Source: Bugula neritina (taxonomy: Eukaryota; Bryozoa; Gymnolaemata; Cheilostomatida; Bugulidae). From it: a DNA stretch of 64,000 bases. Position 1 is the stretch's first letter. Every line of letters begins with the position of its first letter. Under the pieces are notes generated by a model. That model saw only the letters and a program-made list of their open reading frames with translations. It searched no databases and was not told where the DNA came from. The stretch spans positions 5,419,733-5,483,732 of the forward strand of contig OZ037772.1 in assembly GCA_964035545.1 (NCBI GenBank), given 5' to 3'. The position numbers were made by a program, and so were the translations under genes. Positions 2,778 to 61,920 of this stretch are shown here, one piece after another.

Positions 2778-3780
2778 AAAAAAAAAGAGATACAGAAATT
2801 GAACTGACCAATAAAAGAACTGCAAGTATACATCCTGAACAAGGACCGGTTCTTTCACCTCCACCACCCGAGTCTGTGAAGCTACTTCACAGACCTATTG
2901 AAGTTTCTCCAATTTGCAAATCTGTTCAAACTTATGAAGGTGTAACATATGCTGGGTGTGACAATGGCGTTATAGACAGGATAGATGAAAACTACAAAGT
3001 AATTAAGTCATTCATCACCATTAAGGGTGAAGATGTGTGGAGTATTTCAGCACATAATGATAGGATATATACTTTGTCTTCTAACTCAACTGTAAGAGTT
3101 CATGACCTTGAAGGGAGGTTCATCACCAGCTGGACTCATGCAGATAACACAAGCTATATAAATCAGCTCGCCATCGTGAACAACCAGATAGCTATTCCTG
3201 ATAGGCTAAATGAGACTCTAGTACTCTACTCTCTAAATGGGGAGGTAGTAAACACTCTACCCTGTCCTCTACTTACTAATACTCTTGTACGTATGTCTGC
3301 TGCAGATAACAACTCAGTTATTATATCTCAGTGTGACTCATCTCTAGTATACAAAGTAGACACACCATCAGGTGACATCGTCTGGCAGTGTAATGAAGTG
3401 GCTGAACCTTGTGGAGTGACCTGCTATAGAGATGACTTTGTACTTGTGGCTGATAATACCTCACTCTGTGCACTATCATTACATACAGGTTAGTTGCTGT
3501 GTATTAAGAGAACATGTATATTATATCCATGCACATTACAAGTCAGTGCATGCAGTGAGTTTATTTACTTTTCTCCATTTGGTACCATTAAATCCCATTA
3601 TTTTTTATTTGCACCATTTTTTATTTCTACATTGCATCTCTTATCATATTTACAGGGAACTTGCTAACCAGGATATCTATGGGACCCATTGACATATCTG
3701 ACTTACACCTCACTGACTTTATCCTAGTGATGTCAGAATGTTTTTCTAAGTCATCTATTCACTTCTATCAGCCAAAGTGA
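2778..3780 (+). CDS. TRIM-like protein, C-terminal propeller-like region (5' part missing)
   Basis: Two exons are supported: 2778-3488 and 3656-3780. The first follows an acceptor (ATTACAG) and enters with two bases of a split codon. It ends at CAG|GTTAGT in phase 1. The second follows TTTACAG, restores the frame and ends at TGA 3778-3780, giving about 278 residues. Repeated blade-like segments are visible, such as VYKVDTPSGDIVWQC, TYEGVTYAGC and SSNSTVRVHDLEG, as expected for an NHL/WD-like propeller at the end of TRIM proteins. The region matches the end of the RING/B-box gene at 56.3-63.5 kb at most positions, with the same exon boundaries and phases. This copy is free of frame lesions. 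It could be the 3' end of a working gene that starts before the window, or a 3' fragment, because no coiled-coil exon was found in the 2.7 kb upstream. Ligand unknown. Confidence 0.75.
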
Positions 3781-17377: not shown

Positions 17378-19984
17378 TCAAGTAAGTTGTATCAGTATCT
17401 CCAGTCCATGAATCTCTAACTCATAGATATTGAGCACGTCATTTACTCCTACAGCTGTTACTCTCACGTATCTACCATACATTCTAGTACGACATGTAGC
17501 CAAAAATATATCTGCAGGTGGTCGTCCAGGAAGGTAGTCACAGATCTCATTTTCTGGTGGATCATCAAAGTTAGCGTCAGTTTCACCAACTGTTACTCTC
17601 ACGTTTGCCAATCGTTCAATAGCAGCTGTAAAAAGATTATTTTAGTTTCCATAACTCTAAGTTTCTTAGATCTGCTGGAATAAAAATTTTTCTAGATTTA
17701 CGATATAGTATTTTTATATACTGTCTAAGTGCAGCCTTTCATTAATTAAATATTAATTCAAATCATCTTATAAAAGTTAGCAAAAAGTACATCTTAATTA
17801 TGACAAAAAGGAGCTTCACAATCTTCACTCCTAGATTCTGTATTAATGACAAATTTGCTAGCTGTAGTTGTATTAGTCTAAAGATAGGTTTTGAGTAGTT
17901 CAGTTGGAAGAATACATGCAAGTAAATTTGCAAATAAAACTTTGAATTGAGTTTGTTGGAAAATATACTCGAAATAAACTTAATTCAAATCATTGGGCCT
18001 CCCAAGTGCATCTGTACGGTCCTCATGTCATGTGTCATATGTCATGTGTCATATGTCATGTGACATATGTCATGTGTCATATGTCATGTGTCATATGTCA
18101 TGTGACATATGTCATGTGTCATATGTCACGTGTCAGAGATGATGTGTCATATGTCATGTGTCATATGTCATGTGTCATATGTCATATGTCATGTGTCAGA
18201 GATGATGTGTCATATGTCATGTGTCATATGTCATGTGTCAGAGATGATGTGTCATATGCCATGTGTCATATGTCATGTGTCAGAGATGATGTGCAATATA
18301 TGTGACATGCATTCTAGTGGCTATATGTGACGAATATCACTTGCAACATGACATGTTCTACAAGTATTTTGTGGCCATTCACAAAACTATTTTTTTTAAG
18401 AATACAATGTTTTTTCAATTTACTGCAATATAGATGTTTAGATTACTAGTTGATGTTTATATTTTATATATACGTCATTTGCCACTAGAAAGACAATTGT
18501 TTTTTTAAATTATATAATCATTTCTTTTTCAAATTTAAAAGACCTTGAGTTGAAGTTTCTGATCTGTTCCAGATTTTGACACCATAAACAAAGTGCTTAG
18601 TGAGAAGATCAATCTGTATCCATGGAGACCGTTCCCATTTTGTGTGGGCAAGGCTATTGTCCTCAGGTATGTTCCACTGAGAAGGAAGATAAATTCCATC
18701 AATGGCATGATCACCAGCGTACTTTGAGTGTGTTGAGGATAACTTGGCAAACTTTCCTGCCAAAAAACATAGCACGATGACAAAATACTTTCCATAATTT
18801 TAAAACATTCTAATTTTTTTTGAAACAAGTTTTTACACTTACTGAAAAGCTTTAGTTTTAAAATTCATTATATTTTGATGTCGATAACTACTTATAAAAA
18901 ACATATAATTGAAGTCGACCATGCTTATATAACTGAACTCATTTAGATTTTCAAGTAGCACAAATACTGTTAAACTTTTTAGTCGCCTCACAATATTTTG
19001 TGCCTTGGGTCACCAATTCTTTTTTAAATTTACATAGTAAATAATTTCGAAAGCCTCTTACAGTTTTCCAGTTGTAAGGATACAACATATCTCGTACCTC
19101 TTGTGAGTGAAGTTGAGAATGCATAAACCTGAATGTCTTCAAAGTGAATCCGTTTGACAGATGTTTGTTTCTCAATGTCAATTGAGTTGTCAATTACTGT
19201 CGGTGTTTCTGACATCTTGCAGGTGCTCGTGACTTCATCATATGACACAGCAGCACATGATTGGTTGACTGCACAAACAGACAGACAGTGTTTGTGAGTG
19301 GGAAGGTATTTTACGTTGTGTGTCTCCAAGATAGAAGAGTAGTTTTGGTTGGTGTACACACCTGTTGCTAAAACATGTGTGACATGTGATATCCAATATG
19401 CACACTTTTTTTAAGATTTAGACTCAAGCAGACAGAAGGTTCAAGTATATCAAGTATCTTATGATAACAATATTTCAAACACTGTATGTATACAATTCAA
19501 CCCAATATATAGTTTCCAAAAGTATTTTATCTCACTTTAATGTTTGTAATAAAGATCCGCTATTTATACATATAAAACTGTATGACCAGAAAAAATTATT
19601 ATATTATTTATTTTGTAGCTATCTAAATTTGCCCCAGAAAGGAGGGATTGTATGTTTAAAATAAGAAATATGCAATGTATGCATACAAAACAAATCCTTG
19701 AACTCAGTTGTCTAGGAGCACCAACTTAAGAATGTTTAATTGAAATCTATTTAATTCTTGCTGCGCAAGCTTTGAGAGTTTTAAAAAAAACTTTGATACA
19801 GCTAGTCATGCACAGGTGACAATCTGCTAAATACACATGTATACAGTTTTCAAATATAAATCTTATCTATTTTTCAAAAGTTTACTTTACATTCCATGAT
19901 ATATTAAACAAACTTACAGCATGAGCAGTCCACCTGAACGACTACAGAAAATAAAACTAGAATTACATTTGTCCGAACCATCAT
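17378..19984 (-). CDS. Secreted PAN plus F5/8-type-C (fucolectin-like) protein, copy 1
   Basis: Four exons, all phase 1: 19918-19984, 19098-19367, 18544-18756 and 17378-17625, giving 265 aa. Exon 1 starts at ATG 19984 (a second ATG follows directly) and encodes a signal peptide ending near VVQVDCSC. Exon 2 is a 90-residue PAN/apple-like module (YTNQNYSSILETHN, HCLSVCAVNQSCAAVSYD, TSTCKMSET). Exons 3-4 are the lectin-like fold: HAIDGIYLPSQWN, SLAHTKWERSPWIQIDLL, FVYGVKIWNRS, RLANVRVTVGET, CDYLPGRPP, CRTRMYGRYVRV, LNIYELEIHGLE. The H, R and R positions of fucolectin sugar binding appear conserved; the specificity is inference. The exon 3 donor is a weak GTCTTT, but its place and phase match the paralogs. 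The copy has a C-terminal extension (ILIQLT) and lacks the stop-overlapping AATAAA seen in three paralogs. Likely soluble pattern-recognition lectin. Confidence 0.8.
18020..18310. repeat. GTCATRT minisatellite in lectin-like intron 3
   Basis: Units of 'atgtcatgtgtcat' (about 14 bp) are mixed with a longer unit containing 'cagagatgatgtgtcat'. ORFs reading MSCVICHVS are artefacts of the repeat. The same motif lies in the same intron of three other lectin-like paralogs (about 24.41, 46.50 and 51.19 kb). Confidence 0.9.
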
Positions 19985-20556
19985 TGTGTAGCTCTAGTGA
20001 TGATATGGCAACTGCATGGTACATCTGCTCACTATGAAGTATAAACAGATTTGTAACACAGCTGCTATAGTTAGTTCAATGACGTTAATATTTTATAGAT
20101 AATTTTTAAACTAGATTCAGTGGTTGCCAAAACATGCTTAAAATCAATAGTAGGGTGATTGAAAACATTCACACTGTAACAGTAACAAATGGAGTGATAT
20201 TTTGACAAAACTTATAAGACTTTATCAATTACTGATGAGACTGTCGTTTATTATGATTCTCAATTGGCCATTTGATAACCCAAGGCTGATTTATAAACCA
20301 ATAAAATAGAAACTGTTTCAAACCAAACAAATTGCATGTCTCCCTGGGATATACATTGAAGCATCGGAGAGCAAGCAATCTTTGTTTGAAAAAAAAAACC
20401 AATAACTTGTTTTCTAATATTATTAAAAATAAGTCAACATTTTATTGAATATAAAATTGTGCAGTGTAGCAACTAACATATCTTTGCACTAGATGACATT
20501 GCCTTGCACTCATTGTGATAAATGCATTAACTGCTGGTCTAAGTGCAATCTACTTG

Positions 20557-20703
<147 letters not shown>

Positions 20704-20732
20704 AAAGTAATGAACGATAAAATTTGGTTTAA

Positions 20733-20793
20733 AACACTTTATTACTACTAGTTTCATGTGCATTGAATGTACACAATCTTCAGATAAAATGTT
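20733..20793 (-). ncRNA. Hammerhead ribozyme, Penelope-like type (minus strand)
   Basis: Reading the minus strand gives CTGAAGA (20783-20777), helix II, GAAA (20755-20752), then helix III ACT/AGT with an AGT loop and cleavage nucleotide A20743. Helix I is long: AACATTTTAT before the core pairs with ATAAAGTGTT after the cleavage site over ten base pairs with one G-U. Helix II has six pairs; its first position is a U-U mismatch rather than the usual G-C, which could weaken activity. Geometry and the AATAAA trailer match the hammerhead at 2368 (+). Both resemble the terminal hammerheads of Penelope-like retroelements. It sits between two (TA)n tracts and next to the retrozyme-like array. Confidence 0.75.
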
Positions 20794-20796
20794 AAG

Positions 20797-20800
<4 letters not shown>

Positions 20801-20884
<84 letters not shown>
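20801..20884. repeat. (TA)n microsatellite
   Basis: Pure TA tract separating the minus-strand hammerhead at 20733 from the 272-bp tandem array. Confidence 0.95.
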
Positions 20885-20888
<4 letters not shown>

Positions 20889-20892
20889 CTCA

Positions 20893-20941
20893 ATCTGTGG
20901 ACAGCAGCTGTCTCGGGGTTTGTCCCCTCATCAGCACAGAA
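20893..20941 (-). ncRNA. Hammerhead ribozyme, array copy 1 (core mutated)
   Basis: Same fold as the other two copies, but the conserved GAAA box reads GAGA (20914-20911, minus strand). The change hits an invariant core adenosine, so this copy is expected to be inactive or very slow. Confidence 0.75.
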
Positions 20942-21164
20942 CAGAGTACCATGGCCCACACCTTGGCAATAGTAGAAACTTATGTTTCTACTAAAGCATA
21001 TTTAAAAGGTGTGTAAACTCAAGCCAGAGAACTCAAGTGACTCTAGGGGTCACCTAGGAATCACGAGCCTTGCAAAATGCTAGCAGCTTGAGTTTGTGAC
21101 CATGGTGAGAGAGCTCAATCACTGAATGTCATTGCTGAGCATTAAGTGAGAGCATAATACCTCA

Positions 21165-21213
21165 ATCTGTGGACAGCAGCTGTTTCGGGGTTTGTCCCCT
21201 CATCAGCACAGAA
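21165..21213 (-). ncRNA. Hammerhead ribozyme, array copy 2 (intact core)
   Basis: Minus strand: helix I TCTGTG, core CTGATGA, helix II GGGG-ACAAA-CCCC, GAAA, helix III ACAG-CTG-CTGT, cleavage after C of GUC, then CACAGA closing helix I over six pairs. Every invariant core position is present and all helices are fully Watson-Crick. The tiny helix III is typical of retrozymes that work best as dimers. Confidence 0.85.
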
Positions 21214-21436
21214 CAGAGTACCATGGCCCACACCTTGGCAATAGTAGAAACTTATGTTTCTACTAAAGCATATTTAAAAGGTGTGTAAACTCAAGCCAGA
21301 GAACTCAAGTGACTCTAGGGGTCACCTAGGAATCACGAGCCTTGCAAAATGCTAGGAGCTTGAGTTTGTGACCATGGTGAGAGAGCTCAATCACTGAATG
21401 TCATTGCTGAGCATTAAGTGAGAGCATAATACCTCA

Positions 21437-21485
21437 ATCTGTGGACAGCAGCTGTTTCGGGGTTTGTCCCCTCATCAGCACAGAA
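21437..21485 (-). ncRNA. Hammerhead ribozyme, array copy 3 (intact core)
   Basis: Identical to copy 2 through core and helices, with GAAA intact. The last unit is truncated downstream of the ribozyme, so cleavage here and at copy 2 would release exactly one 272-nt monomer. Confidence 0.85.
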
Positions 21486-21944
21486 CAGAGTACCATGGCC
21501 CACACCTTGGCAATAGTAGAAACTTATGTTTCTACTAAAGCATATTTAAAAGGTGTGTAAACTCAAGCCATATATATATGTGTGTGAGTAATTATTATGA
21601 TAAACAATATATTACTCATAACTGTTTTATATTCTGTCATTAGATGAAAAATAGTATTGTTGAGATAAAAATTGAATGTTTTGCTTCTAATCAAATAATA
21701 ACAGGAATTGCTGCATAGAAGCTAAGTATCTTATCTGAGTAAACTAGCTATACACATTGTACTTCAAACCTGAAATTGCTAGTGAAAAATAAATGAAAAA
21801 TATACTACGCCTTCTGAGATGAATGCTGTCCTATCCTACTATATACTGTGTTTACTTTACTATACAACACTAAACTGCACTAGGCCATACTCCGCTACAC
21901 TAAACTATGTTATACGATAATAATTATGTGTAGCTATGCATTGC

Positions 21945-22081
21945 ACTGCATTGCACTGCACTGCACCGCACCGCACCGCACCGCACCGCACCGCACCGCA
22001 CCGCACCGCACCGCACCGCACCGCACCGCACCGCACCGCACCGCACCGCACCGCACCGCACCGCACTGCACCGCACTGCAC
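21945..22081. repeat. (CACCG)n pentanucleotide array
   Basis: More than 20 units of 'caccg' flanked by 'cactg' variants. Open frames on both strands are artefacts. The paralogous position upstream of the next lectin-like copy holds a CTATA-type pentamer array (27778-28390). Confidence 0.95.
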
Positions 22082-29283: not shown

Positions 29284-29575
29284 AGGGTGGGTACAGGTGT
29301 ATTATAGGGGTGGGTACAGGTGTATTATAGGGGTGGGTAAAAGTGTATTATAGGGGTGGGTACAGGTGTATTATAGGAGTGGGTACAGGCGTATTATAGG
29401 GGTGGATACAGGTGCATTATAGGGGCGGGTACAGGTGTATTATAGGAGTGGGTACAGGTGTATTATAGGGGTAGGTACAGGCGTATTATAGGGGTGGATA
29501 AAGGTGTATTATAGGGGTGGGTGCAGGTGTATTATAGGGGTGGATACAGGTGTCTTATAGGGGTGGATATGGATG
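29284..29575. repeat. 23-bp minisatellite, about 12 copies
   Basis: Unit 'ggggtgggtacaggtgtat' + 'tata' repeats about 12 times with single-base variants (for example 'gggtggataca', 'ggagtgggtac'). Confidence 0.95.
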
Positions 29576-34600: not shown

Positions 34601-37600
34601 TATTGTGGCATTCAATTCAGTAGAATGCTTGTCAGTTGGGTGTTATTTGACTTCCGACTGCCAAAATTTTAGCTAAACACCAAGCACATAGGCTTGTGAC
34701 TAATATGAATGTTTATGAGGAAGTAGTGGGTCTGAAGACTCCATCTAGAGAATGACATATATTCATAGTTTGAAATGATGATGCTCACATGTGCTGAGTC
34801 TAGTACAGTAATTAAAGTTATTTATGGATGATTGCATAGTGTATATCTAGAAGTTAAATTGAAAATTTTCCCATTGGATAGTTTGAGTAGTAACTCATGT
34901 AATGTCAATATAAGTCATTTAATCAATTTCATTTTAATAGTGCTTTTTCTCATTGTTTCTCACCGTATCAGTTTTAATCCCTGCGGTAAAAACGTGGTTC
35001 TGCATAGCCAACGCAATTAGTGATTTCTATCTGATACTATCATTCTTGTCTTTGCTATTTAATCTCTACGGGTTCACATCAAATATGTTGGTGTCCATCC
35101 ATCAATGTTTACGTTTTCCTCTCTTTCTCTTGCCTTTAGTCAGTGTAATAATGTTAGGATTGCTAGCCTCAGTTTTGTGGTTTGCGTTGAACCTAAGCTG
35201 CCGCTGTGCGTTGATTTTACAGGGTGTTGTCCTATTTATCACTGATTGTGTGTTGGTTGTCCGCATGATTGTCTATGATACAGGGTTTTTAAGGCCGGAT
35301 GCTCTTCCTGACATCAAGCCCTCTGTTATTTTTGGGCTTAAAACCCTCTGCAAGATTTGGTAGCTTGTCCAGGTCCAAGTTACGTTGCTGCTTTTTCTTA
35401 GCATGCAAGTTAAATTAAAACATGTTAGAACTGAGGAGCCAAAATATTTATGTTTTTTTTTTAATTAAAAATATGAGTTATATACTGAAAAAACTTTTTG
35501 TTCTCACAGGAAATGGTGAAAGTGTGACATGTTACTCCTGCGGAATAGTGTCATCTAATTGGACACGCAGATGTGATGTGTTTACGCGTCACGCCAGAAG
35601 TTATCCCACCTGTCCTTACGTCATCTCTACTAGAGGGCAGCAGTTTGTTGATGACGTCTTGGCAGAGTTTGGTTCTTACCATTCCATACCACCGGAAAAC
35701 AAAATCACTGTGGGTGTTAGATACTGTATGATGTTTTATTGCAAGCTAGTATATATATTATACTATATTATATTAAATTCTTAAATCATGTTTTTTATAA
35801 TATTATTAAAAAGGCATAATTTAAAAGTTTAATATAATATAGTATAATATATATACTGCAATAAAACACCATACAGTATATTGTAGCGTAATACAGTATA
35901 TAACGAACTGTAGTGTAGTAAAATATAGCATGTAACATGAAATACTGCTATATAGCACAGTAATATGTAATAAAATGTAAACAAATATAGTGAAATGTAA
36001 TATAATGCAATCAAATATAATAAACCCACACTTTTTAAGCTATATAAAAAACACTGAAGGTATTTAATGCAGCTAAGAAGTTTTGTAATTGTGACAGTAA
36101 AGTAATTGTGATCAATGGCCTTTACTAGGAATAGAACCACTAATAAGCTTGTACTCAACAACGAGTCAGTGCTCTAACCACTACACCACGGCTGCACTTC
36201 CTATACCATGATATGAGAGAATATTAATTGTTAGATAATCATAGTTATATTCCTTGTTTTAGGTGGTTTCAAATAGAATGCTCAGGCCTCGAATGGACTC
36301 AATACCACTTCAGAAAGCACTGGATATGGGAATGCCAAGTCAGGCACTCAAAACCGTAGTTCAGCGAAGAATTATGGTTGGTTTTACTCAGAAGCTTGGT
36401 GTTGTTTTATTCTAGTCATAGCTGTTGAGCTTTATGTCCAATCTATTTCTCACTGATCAAATAAATTTGTAAAATAGAGCTACGCTTTACCAGTATGCTA
36501 CACAAATTGTTGCAAATCACTATAGTATATTTATCTTTACTGAGCATTTAATGATCTGTCTGGTTTTCTCAGAAAGGAGCGCCAGATTTCAAGTACATCT
36601 CTGAGATAGCAAAGGAAGTACAAGAATTGAACGTTCCAGAAGTCCAGTTGCAAGAAGCCAATGCTACATCTATTGTGTTACCTAAAGTAATAAATCTACC
36701 AGAATCTGAGAGTAACATGGAAGAGGAAGTGATGTCATCAGCGGAGGGTCAGATAGATGACACAGTAGAACAGAGCAGTGGCCATGTTGAAAACAGAACA
36801 AATCTCTCTCTAGAGACGAATAAGATAGAAGGTACTAATAGTTTTCAAAATATTTTAATTGAATTCAAACATACATTAGATCCCTATTGTATCTTTTTTA
36901 AAATTGTTTGTATGTTTTATATAATATTTTGTTGTATACCTAATAGAATAGAAATATATGTTACGAAACGCACGGCGCTACATGCATTAAAAAAACAAGT
37001 TTCTGCTCTTATATAATAAAAATCAATTGGAGTTTATTTGTGTGCTGACCACAAACATCGCACCCATACAGTATGATAAATTCTTATACTGTACTTTTAT
37101 ACTTTATTTATTTAGTATTCACGTTTTGATCCTGAGATAAAACATGATGACTTATTTAGGTAAGGATTTAGCTGTTCCAGGTAGCCCAGTGTTTCCACAG
37201 CACTAACAAGATTATTTGAATTTTAGTTGTTGCAGACGTCAGAACTGAGGCGACTGAACTCAAGTCCGAACTTCTCTGTAAAGTTTGTATGACAGAACCT
37301 GTGTCTATGATATTCCTGCCTTGCTCACATCTCAGTAAGCTTTTAGACATCTTTGAGTTTTATCCATTTTTCTAGCAATAGCTTTGTAATACAATATGTG
37401 AATACCGGTTTGTTGTCCCAAAGTCATTACAAAACATTTTCTCAACTATTTATTGCAAAGTGTAACTTGGTTACAGCAAAACGAAACTGAAAATTAGCAA
37501 TGAGTTTTGTTATATCTCAAAGCACCTGTTGATTGGATTATTTAGATCTATAGGTCCAGTCACATGACTTTATGTTTACATTCTCTATACACTGTTGTGC

Positions 37601-50429: not shown

Positions 50430-52838
50430 TTATTCCAATAATTTGAGCCCAGAAATTTCTAACTCATAGATATTGAGAGACTTATTCACTTCAACAGCTG
50501 TTACTCTTACATATCTACCATACATTCTGGTACGACATGTAACCAGAAATATATCTGCAGGCTGTGGCTGTCCAGGAAGATAGTCACAGATCTCATCTTC
50601 TGGTGGATCATCAAAGTTAGTGTCAGTTTCACCAACTGTTACTCTTACATTAGCCAGTCTTCTAATAACCCCTTTTAAAATTATTGAATGCGGTTGAATG
50701 ATCATCAACAAGTACCTCAAACAAAATAATAAAAGAAACTCAATGTCTTTTACTCCTTATCACATTTATATTACTTATATTTGACAGTTACTTTATTACT
50801 CAGACATCTCAAACTGGCATTTTCTGTCATGTATGTTATGCCACGTCATAACATGTGATTACCTTTGGTCACATTTCACCGCCACAGTAGCAGAAAAACC
50901 CACACTTAAGTTTATAGTCGCTCTCCCTGTGAGAAACCTCTGATGGAAATAATTTTGTTAAAGCAGGCTAAAGAATTATTTAAACGAGGCACGGGAGCAA
51001 TTATAACTGCATGAATGCTCCTTCTAACGTTACCAATGGCCTATGTCAGGGCTTGAAGCATGATCTCGTATTTAGTATAGTAAGGCATACAAATGCCCTA
51101 ACCTCTAGACCACAGCTGCTCGATCTATGTGTCATGTTTAAAATGTGACATGAGTGAGTTATAAAACATTCCCTCTGGGACCAGTCAGATGTGCCATATG
51201 TGTCATATATCATGTGTCATGTGTCATATATCATGTGTCATGGGTCATGTGTCATGTGTCATATATCATGTGTCATGTGTCATGTTTCAAACAAGATGTG
51301 TCACATGTCATGTGTCATATGTCATGTGTCACATTATATGACGTGTCATGTCACATGTGTCATGGTGGCCAATATAATATCCTTTACACATGCCATATTT
51401 TTTATGTGTAATACTCATGTAAAAGTGACAAAACTATTTTCTCACACTTTAATAATTATAAGACATTTATAGTTTTCTAATTCTGTAACACAGCAATTCT
51501 CAAAGAACCTGGATTCGGGTGTTCAGATCTGTTCCAGATTTTGACACCATACACAAAGTGATCAGTGAGAAGATCTACTTGTATCCATGGAGACGGTTCC
51601 CATTTTGTGTGGACCATACTATCATACTCAGAAATATCCCATTGAGATGGAAGATAAATCCCATCAATAGCCTGACCACCGTCAAAGTTTCTAAGCTTAG
51701 TAGATAGAGCGACGGATTTTCCTGTAGTAAACATTCATAGCAACAAACATTGACATCACTTGACATTTTTAATAAATTTTAAGAGTTTCAACTATAATTG
51801 TTAAACAGCTTGAGCTATATTTGCTAATATTTTTAGTTTTGGAATTTTCAGGAATCATGCAGGCCATAAAGTACATAACTAAATTAAACTTTTCAACACT
51901 TTTTACTATTGTAGCAAACCAGTTTTTAGCCTTTATCATATTCAAAATGTTACCTTTAAAGTTGAAGCAAATATTTTTTTAAACAAATTTAACAAACTGC
52001 ATAGAACAAAGCTTCTCTCACCTCTAGCAAGCAGTGTTGAGAACTCATAAACCCGAGTGTCGTCAGAGTGAATCTGTTTGACAGATGTCGTGTTCTCGGT
52101 GTCAGTGGAGTTGACAATCACACTCGGTGTTTCTGACATCTTGCAGGTGCTTGTAGCTCTATCATATGACACAGCAGCACATGATTGGTTGATTGCACAA
52201 ACAACCAAGCAGTGCCTGTGAGTGGGAAGGTATTTTATGGTGTGCATCTCCAAGATGGATGAATAGTTTTGGTTGGTATACACATCAGTTGCTGGAACAG
52301 ACATAGCCAATAATGTTTATATATTTAGTGTTACCAATTTTTCTAATAATCAGACAAGTACTAACTTGATATAGTAAAATATAGTTTAATCTTACCCAGA
52401 GCAACAATTTGCAAACAAAATAAAAAATTGCTATGCAATATGGCAAACCCGATGCCTTTAAAAAATTTATAATTCTATGTTTTAAAATTATATCAGAATT
52501 ATGCAGTATCAAAAAAAAACTCTGCATGCATAATATATAAAATATATGATATAATATAAAAACAGTTTTTGTATTACTTAAAAGCATCAACTAAACAAGT
52601 TTGAAATACAATGAATTATTCAGCAAAGATGCTAGTAGAGCTTTGAACACTTGTCAGTGGTATACACATTAAATGACTTGGTAAATATATAGGGCGACAG
52701 TTTTTTTTTTAGTTTTTATAAAAGTTTGATTTTGACTATATTTTTACATTACAAAATGAAGTAAACAAACTTACAGCATAAACAGTCAGCTTGAGCAACT
52801 AAAAGAACTAAAACCAGAATTACATTTATCCAAACCAT
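50430..52838 (-). CDS. Secreted PAN plus F5/8-type-C (fucolectin-like) protein, copy 5
   Basis: Exons 52775-52838, 52022-52291, 51509-51721 and 50430-50671, all phase 1, give 262 aa. The signal peptide is MVWINVILVLVLLVAQADC. The PAN module shows EMHTIKYLPTHRHCLVVC, NQSCAAVSYDRATSTCKM. The lectin-like fold has QAIDGIYLPSQWDISEYD, MVHTKWEPSPWIQVDLL, FVYGVKIWNRSEHPNPG, then RLANVRVTVGETDTNFDD, CDYLPGQPQPADIF (a two-residue insertion), CRTRMYGRYVRV and LNIYELEISGLK. The H/R/R sugar-contact positions are kept. The stop TAA lies inside AATAAA (50434-50429). This is the most upstream gene of the minus-strand array; about 3 kb separates it from the start of the TRIM-like gene on the other strand. 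Confidence 0.82.
50907..51122 (-). mobile_element. tRNA-derived SINE copy in lectin-like copy 5 intron 3
   Basis: Minus-strand reading: head 'gcagctgtggtctagaggtt', 'caagccctgacataggccat', 'ggtaacgttagaaggagcat' and 'cctcgtttaaataattcttt', ending near 'tcacagggagagcgactata'. It matches the copies at 11672 and 12768 end to end. Confidence 0.8.
51190..51366. repeat. GTCATRT minisatellite in lectin-like intron 3 (copy 5)
   Basis: Units of 'tcatatatcatgtgtcatgt' type over about 175 bp, as in copy 1 intron 3. Confidence 0.85.
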
Positions 52839-60779: not shown

Positions 60780-61000
60780 CAAATATAACATACCACACGA
60801 TATAATACCATAGGACACTGTATAGCACCATAGGACACTGTATATTACCATAGGACACTGCATAATACCATAGAACACTGTATAATACCATAGGACACTG
60901 TATAATACCATAGGACACTGTATAATATCATAGGACACTGTATAATACCATAGAACACTGTATAATACCATAGAACACTGTTAAATATCATAGGGTACAG
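60780..61000. repeat. 20-bp minisatellite in TRIM-like intron
   Basis: Unit 'ataccataggacactgtata' repeats about ten times with few changes. ORFs such as the MVLYSVLWYYT type are artefacts. Confidence 0.95.
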
Positions 61001-61920
61001 TATAATATTGTCTAAGACACTCTTTAAAATTATCAAAAATGCACTAATCTATAGAGCTGTCACATTGTCGGTATATATAATGATATTGTTAGGTTGACAT
61101 CATCAAGTCACATCATGACATGAAGAAGGAGATTGATAGACTGTTGACAGAAGAAATTCCTAAGTTGCTGGAGTTTGATGATATAACATCTCTGCGGGTC
61201 AAAGGTTAGTTTTATATGCTATCCAGGTTAGCTCCATATAATACTTCAAATGGAAAATAATATAAAACATATCCTTGAATGAGTGACATCATAATGTCAA
61301 TCTATATTACACCTTGTTCCTAGCCAATTTTGAGCAAAATTTTCAAATAAGTAAATTTTATCTTATTTCTTAGGTTCATACTAAATGCATTTAAACTACA
61401 TACCACATTATAATTATGACAATATCTTCATCTAGTTTTGCATTGTATGTCTTTCATCACAGGAGCTATTCTCTGTGTTATAACATATACTATATTTTTA
61501 ATGTAACAATACGTTGAATGTACTGAATAACTAAAGTATGTTCTTGAAAACAAAGTTTATGTTAATATTAATTAATATCTGCATTGTTAACACCGCATTA
61601 CACTGTGTATCCCAGTGTAGGATGAAGTCTTTTTTACTATAAGCCCAGCTTGTGAGATAAATAGTATCAGATTGATAATTCTCAGTGTCTGGCTTAAAAC
61701 AGCAAGTTGTTTATACCCGTAAGCTAAAATTAGGACTTTTCTCAACTATCTATAGACATGCAGACGTATACATTAGTTGTGCTCACTCTTGCTTTATAAT
61801 CACCAGCTTTAATGATAAGCATATCTTGATATATTATTACAGTGATATCACTGGAATAATATCTTAGATAATTATTTATTAATTGTATATAGTGAAGTAA
61901 ACTAACACTGTGTTTACTGT

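Follow-up and report, generated by a model that had tools for sequence, protein, structure and literature searches.

A hammerhead retrozyme of Bugula neritina with a fixed start in TA microsatellites, probably copied by Penelope-type reverse transcription

Within a 64-kb stretch of the Bugula neritina genome (the window), we describe a tandem array of short units with hammerhead ribozymes that is, as far as sequence can settle a family, a non-autonomous, non-coding metazoan non-LTR retrozyme. Nearly all of the copies sampled across the genome lie at TA microsatellites and begin at one fixed position beside the ribozyme. We consider it probable that the retrozyme is copied by Penelope-type target-primed reverse transcription at nicked TA repeats, with a circular RNA as template.

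Tandem Repeats Finder places the array at 20886-21570 (period 272, 2.5 copies, 99% matches, score 1356), which bears out the 272-bp unit repeated 2.5 times of an earlier note made from the sequence alone; the limits of that note, 20887..21569, are one base narrower on each side. The array and its junctions are composed as follows.

20887..21570, minus strand: retrozyme array; the RNA sense is the minus strand, and unit 3 would be transcribed first
20887-21158, minus strand: unit 1, complete
21159-21430, minus strand: unit 2, complete
21431-21570, minus strand: unit 3, partial
21439..21483, minus strand: unit 3 hammerhead, intact; cleavage predicted at 21444|21443
21167..21211, minus strand: unit 2 hammerhead, intact; cleavage predicted at 21172|21171
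20895..20939, minus strand: hammerhead of unit 1, A14 to G at 20912, predicted dead
20886..20887, minus strand: fixed junction where the TA tract meets the 3' end (RNA sense) of the element; reverse transcription would begin here, 13 nt to the 3' side of the cut
20804..20885, no strand: TA tract at the fixed junction, putative target
21571..21579, no strand: short TA run at the ragged (RNA 5') end

The unit has a G+C content of 44.9% and is predicted to be strongly self-paired, with 71% of its bases paired in the circular fold and a fold energy z of -6.85. In the ORF list of the window, no ORF of at least 90 aa overlaps the array, and no LTR-like repeat was seen to flank its ends besides TA. 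Target-site duplications were not recognised by eye at the few non-TA sites, and inside (TA)n they are indistinguishable from the repeat itself. A short noncoding self-paired unit of 45% G+C, a type I hammerhead, and dispersed truncated, monomeric and arrayed copies all support the designation of the array as retrozyme-like. The description "RNA-only mobile element" has to be taken to mean an element that borrows a reverse transcriptase. As the unit has no ORF for a reverse transcriptase or a GIY-YIG domain, the array is not itself a Penelope-like element (PLE), and the retrozyme could at most use a PLE protein in trans.

The proposal that the array lies inside a lectin-like gene cluster draws weak support from ten window ORFs, among which two PAN_1 domains, one BIR and one beta-propeller pass their cut-offs, whilst an F5/8-type-C domain and a second BIR fall below them. 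The exons that pass belong to host genes:

19030-19356 and 52000-52307: PAN_1 exons
35422-35781: BIR exon
2876-3490: beta-propeller exon

Several more similar PAN-like ORFs lie on the minus strand of the window, which suggests a local gene family. Other tandem arrays in the window are (GCACC)n at 21953-22081, a 23-bp unit at 29285-29566 and a 20-bp unit at 60801-61007.

On the minus strand, units 2 and 3 read CTGTG-CTGATGA-GGGG-ACAAA-CCCC-GAAA-CAG-CTG-CTG-TC^CACAG, a complete type I hammerhead motif with a helix I of UCUGUG/CACAGA, a CUGAUGA core, a helix II of GGGG/CCCC closed by the loop ACAAA and followed by GAAA, a helix III of ACAG/CUGU with a 3-base loop, and the cut site GUC. Beyond an internal loop of helix I, CUC/GAG forms a second paired stretch, a feature that canonical animal hammerheads also have. 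Unit 1 carries GAGA in place of GAAA at window position 20912, which we take to be core base A14 by hammerhead numbering, so that the earlier claim of a hammerhead in every unit, correct as to type and to all named helices in units 2 and 3, applies to two of the three ribozymes. The spacing of the hammerheads implies a 272-nt monomer, one of which would be released by cleavage in units 2 and 3. In the hammerheads at 21167-21211 and 21439-21483 (minus strand), the strand ACAGCUGCUGU of helix III is self-complementary except for a single U-U mismatch, with a predicted duplex of -14.1 kcal/mol; a dimeric hammerhead, as in newts, may therefore be possible.

We also scanned with a structural descriptor that called for the core, a cleavable site, 5 bp in helix I and a minimum of 3 bp in each of helices II and III. 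Its only two matches in the window fall inside the array, and 150 random 64-kb sequences from a first-order Markov model gave no match. The covariance-model check suggested by the earlier note failed: no Rfam family reached its gathering score across the 64-kb window, and a relaxed search of 701 bases returned seven rows at E up to 10, with RF00163 absent from them and RAGATH-1-hammerhead alone aligned over the right bases in units 2 and 3 (16.4 bits against a threshold of 56.3, E 6.5). A genome-wide search with RF00163 was empty and equally silent in all 14 control genomes, and is hence uninformative. In our judgement, formed with no known animal retrozyme as positive control, the motif is present and the Rfam miss reflects a narrow model. 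RNAfold, given the 66-nt ribozyme alone, prefers another fold (-18.7 kcal/mol versus -14.5 for the hammerhead fold), and 47 of 200 shuffles fold as well.

The genome (215.8 Mb in 295 contigs) holds many relatives of this array. The 272-bp unit gave 79 BLAST pieces, with 40 of 695 candidates scored; the exact core with its spacing occurs 340 times genome-wide (reversed-pattern control, 0), and the terminal 12-mer 463 times (control, 9). Copies are dispersed on contigs C1-C9 as truncated pieces, monomers and arrays of up to five units, and the ribozyme core was found in none of the viral contigs scanned. Among 119 unit copies, 81 belong to a subfamily A of 272 bp with CCCC in helix II and 37 to a subfamily B of about 271 bp with UCCC, one unit falling in neither. 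Core and helices are intact in 91 of the 107 complete ribozymes of these copies, and in 61 of 72 when counting is limited to arrays chosen by BLAST and not picked by ribozyme pattern. In these BLAST-chosen arrays the core varies about as much as the rest of the unit (6/784 versus 91/12333). Covariation was considered as proof of the ribozyme and rejected as weak: a two-sided helix change occurs in one unit only, with A-U where most have G-C or G-U, perhaps having arisen by way of the G-U of subfamily B, and the remaining helix variation is one-sided or breaks pairs. Such variation looks like that of recent copies under no selection, and is neutral on catalysis.

We characterised the ends of the element in 81 arrays, obtained from 89 loci that collapse into 73 patches: the 30 best and 20 weaker BLAST loci, the 30 first-listed exact-core sites on C1 and nine exact-core sites on C3, leaving out pieces below 30 nt and an internal palindrome match (84-107). 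The RNA 3' end lies at query position 1-4 in 77 of the 81 arrays; of the others, two start at position 5, one runs into the end of its locus and one is degenerate. This fixed start is 10-13 nt 3' of the cleavage site and reads AATA|CC in subfamily A and AATAT|C in subfamily B, which would give a 2-4 nt match to a TA primer. Scored as a run of 10 nt or more no further than 50 nt away, TA accompanies the fixed junction in 75 of 80 arrays and the other (5') end in 58 of 80; by this criterion TA is present on both sides in 56 of 79 arrays and on neither in four. A second measure on 79 arrays counted 59 with TA on both sides, 13 on the 3' side only, five on the 5' side only and two on neither. As background, 24 of 1256 50-mers of the window outside 20500-21600 contain such TA.

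Places containing the terminal 12-mer, a sample chosen by neither length nor ribozyme, behave in the same way: 58 of them on C1 comprised 41 direct joins to TA, ten inner array units and seven others, of which two are inner-unit sequence and one an interrupted TA. Genome-wide on the reverse strand, where each place is listed once, 165 TA joins stand beside 230 12-mer places, inner units included; the forward count (259) is inflated, as one place can match twice. The (TA)n tracts noted earlier around the array are real, being read in the sequence and by Tandem Repeats Finder, and very probably they are the target of insertion rather than incidental flanks. A synthesised tail would also give the pattern of the 13 of 79 arrays in which TA is confined to the 3' side.

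The opposite end is ragged. Array lengths run from 50 to 1373 nt, up to five turns (81 arrays), and in the positional set the distance of the end from a multiple of 272 falls between -4 and +22 nt for 11 of 38 arrays, a range picked after the data were seen (expected 3.8, P 0.0009); counting one segmental duplication once leaves 10 of 37 (expected 3.7, P 0.003). The ends of 13 of the 81 arrays form a second cluster within the ribozyme, 32-59 nt beyond a full turn, which perhaps marks a pause at the folded hammerhead. Sampled inserts extend at least 50 nt from the fixed start, in a sample picked by ribozyme core or whole unit, to which short inserts stopping before the cleavage site are invisible. 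Because a cleaved linear monomer allows only 10-13 nt from that start, these longer copies would need an RNA closed or uncut at the cleavage site. Among the 5' flanks of the 81 arrays, the sole colinear shared one belongs to a segmental duplication in which the 3' flank is shared too, so no copied donor 5' flank is seen. Subfamily A units diverge by 0.58% within arrays (27 pairs) versus 1.40% between them (2053 pairs), and a single variant is common to all three window units; we count both as pointing to one template per array.

We searched the same genome for PLEs. A strict PLE motif was found nowhere in it, and a relaxed one at 41 places (control, 5), of which 34 form one near-identical family, PLE-1. 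The Pfam GIY-YIG model (PF01541) matched a single place in the genome, which by eye reads as an SLX1-like host gene and was rejected as a candidate. All 150 scored candidates for Pfam RVT_1 match that model (150 of 2124, ranked by LINE- and LTR-type sequences). One PLE-1 locus, L086, contains the 3' part of the gene: 333 aa with a stop at 1998, covering the end of a reverse transcriptase and a GIY-YIG-like stretch. Its protein has a DVVSLFTSVP motif, which we take to be the PLE-typical reverse transcriptase motif, and matches RVT_1 at E 5.6e-05 with 23.4 bits, below the cut-off of 29.6; the GIY-YIG-like stretch VYKI...TYVGESGRRLSHRIHEH was read by eye, the Pfam GIY-YIG model giving no match to this protein, and no solved structure matched it. 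After the stop, again by eye, comes a minimal hammerhead-like motif, CTGAAGATGGGTAC...GTACCCGAAA, and then TA. The PLE-1 3' region gave 47 pieces, 43 of them reaching the TA-like query end; 20 sampled 3' ends chosen among these 43 all meet TA (20/20), some being inverted partners at one place and three (L097, L099, L106) having a TA run that hardly extends beyond the matched end. An informal look noticed no sequence shared between PLE-1 and the retrozyme, and the two differ in how far the start site is from the ribozyme.

A second family, PLE-2, is present in the window itself, where a fragment lies 80 bp from the retrozyme array, in the same orientation and between two TA tracts:

20703..20805, minus strand: PLE-2 3'-terminal fragment with a minimal hammerhead-like motif, CTGAAGA...GAAAC, at 20783-20751, read by eye
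20557..20702, no strand: TA tract adjoining the 3' end (RNA sense) of the PLE-2 fragment

Hammerhead-like motifs thus occur in PLEs of the same genome, in PLE-1 and in this fragment. PLE-2 has at least 40 genomic copies, often in inverted pairs, and we read it as Penelope-type because of the motif, the inverted pairs and two alternative 3' ends. It ends in TA at the shorter end, CTTTTAT, in 7 of 19 sampled copies; the other 12 run on to the longer end, where TA follows in the single readable copy (L063). That locus also carries a truncated retrozyme (C1:14584583-14584790), whose outer flanks are PLE-2 sequence and reverse complements of each other, so that the retrozyme looks to have inserted within an inverted PLE-2 pair. 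In a segmental duplication at C3:6990411 and C3:7005751, both copies have a retrozyme with an inverted PLE-2 pair about 3 kb away. For comparison, we took one LINE family, in which at least 31 copies share an identical 3' end: its tails are (CAAA)n, and none of seven ends adjoins TA.

These observations can be joined in one mechanism. Minus-strand transcripts of genomic copies would cut themselves at the hammerhead, and a host RNA ligase would close the monomers into 272-nt circles. A Penelope-like protein of the same genome, with reverse transcriptase and GIY-YIG domains, would nick a TA microsatellite, and the TA end would anneal by 2-4 nt to AUA/AUAU at the base of the outer stem of the ribozyme, 10-13 nt to the 3' side of the cut. 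Products of reverse transcription would start at ACCTCAATC, and the circle would be copied for anything from a partial turn to about five turns, yielding tandem arrays. Of these steps we infer four: that the RNA cleaves itself, that the monomer is closed into a circle, that this circle and not an uncleaved multimer serves as template, and that the Penelope protein is the enzyme; the TA site shared by the retrozyme and PLE-1 probably points to the enzyme. More tentatively, and with rather less than even confidence, we propose that the closed circular RNA is the direct template, that the Penelope-type enzyme goes round it as many as five times with a preference for stopping on completed turns, and that the ribozyme both makes the circle and presents the start site.

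An alternative keeps the same target-primed start and takes as template an uncleaved linear multimer transcribed from genomic arrays, circles being a by-product or absent. RNA of this kind would likewise span the cleavage site, arrays often hold variants confined to some of their units (61 sites, versus 12 at which every unit has the variant), and a lizard PLE copied unprocessed RNA in vitro with its hammerhead dispensable, according to the accessible text of PMC11167929. Against this, donor arrays are mostly near one unit in length whilst inserts reach 1373 nt, none of the 81 arrays has brought along a donor 5' flank, and endings near whole turns are in excess, although an AT-rich start site could promote the other junction there. 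On this balance we regard the uncleaved multimer as unlikely.

Mobilisation by a LINE or other reverse transcriptase, with the TA tract being partly a 3' tail made by slippage, would draw on the abundance of LINE reverse transcriptases (150 of 150 scored RVT_1 candidates match) and on the 13 of 79 arrays with TA at the 3' side only. Against it, TA lies on both sides in 56 or 59 of 79 arrays by our two measures, the single LINE family tested ends in (CAAA)n with TA in 0 of 7, and it is PLE-1 that has the TA site (20/20); this account therefore seems improbable to us. That the array is an ordinary tandem satellite spread by unequal crossing-over, its ribozyme fossil or fortuitous, would suit the tandem arrangement, the Rfam miss and a core no more conserved than the rest of the unit, yet short arrays and truncated copies are dispersed on C1-C9 with one end fixed and one ragged, the descriptor match is absent from 150 random sequences, and 61 of 72 complete ribozymes in BLAST-chosen arrays are intact, which makes a satellite origin very improbable. 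Copying from a circle by a Penelope-type enzyme remains our preferred reading.

Animal retrozymes have been known since 2020, and the present family adds three clues on their copying: a narrow landing site, TA microsatellites, that Penelope-like copies share, a fixed internal cDNA start beside the ribozyme, and up to five turns with an excess near whole ones. With them, the hypothesis of copying by PLEs is open to a direct test that needs a single purified protein, an RNA circle and a target of TA repeats. If it is true, retrozymes and Penelope elements would have one microsatellite-targeted machine in common. Landing in TA tracts would also account for the build-up of such elements with genes left intact. 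We found no report of TA-microsatellite targeting by retrozymes in the literature searched, which had most subscription papers outside its reach, directly relevant work on PLEs and hammerheads included; likewise, the accessible portions of PMC7229834, PMC11167929, PMC7761336, PMC8490949 and PMC12477314 do not describe TA targeting from a fixed start next to the ribozyme.

Metazoan non-LTR retrozymes, as set out in the available text of Cervera & de la Pena 2020 (PMC7229834), are built of non-coding units of roughly 170-400 nt, with a type I hammerhead and a G+C below 50%, occur as dispersed monomers to multimers with self-paired RNA, and share their genomes with PLEs; all these features are common to the array described here. 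Two features here, the TA microsatellites and the single start 10-13 nt 3' of the cleavage site, are not described for metazoan retrozymes in that text, whereas circular RNA, demonstrated there, would here be read from sequence alone. The copying enzyme and RNA form of animal retrozymes are left there as a hypothesis, with PLEs named as a strong candidate. Plant LTR retrozymes, going by the same text (PMC7229834), are likewise a non-autonomous, hammerhead-bearing and circle-producing class, but differ in their type III hammerhead, LTRs, PBS/PPT and circles of 600-800 nt.

The Poseidon element of Anolis (Frangieh et al. 2024, as far as the accessible text of PMC11167929 goes) begins reverse transcription, as here, at an internal site close to a hammerhead and not at the 3' terminus, and its AT-rich nick sites compare with the TA site of the retrozyme; AT-rich nicking by PLEs was thus already known. 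Its two alternative 3' ends (the "tail") are matched by those of PLE-2. The retrozyme, unlike Poseidon, codes for nothing and has a canonical rather than a minimal ribozyme, and its start lies 10-13 nt from the cleavage site, compared with 85-92 nt in Poseidon as computed from the figures of that paper. Terminons (Arkhipova et al. 2017, as presented in the accessible part of the review PMC12477314) have an RNA template complementary to the target right beside a hammerhead, as does the retrozyme; they address telomeric G-rich overhangs and can exceed 40 kb, whereas the retrozyme addresses TA microsatellites with 272 nt. On that account, Terminons are the nearest parallel to TA targeting with a fixed start.
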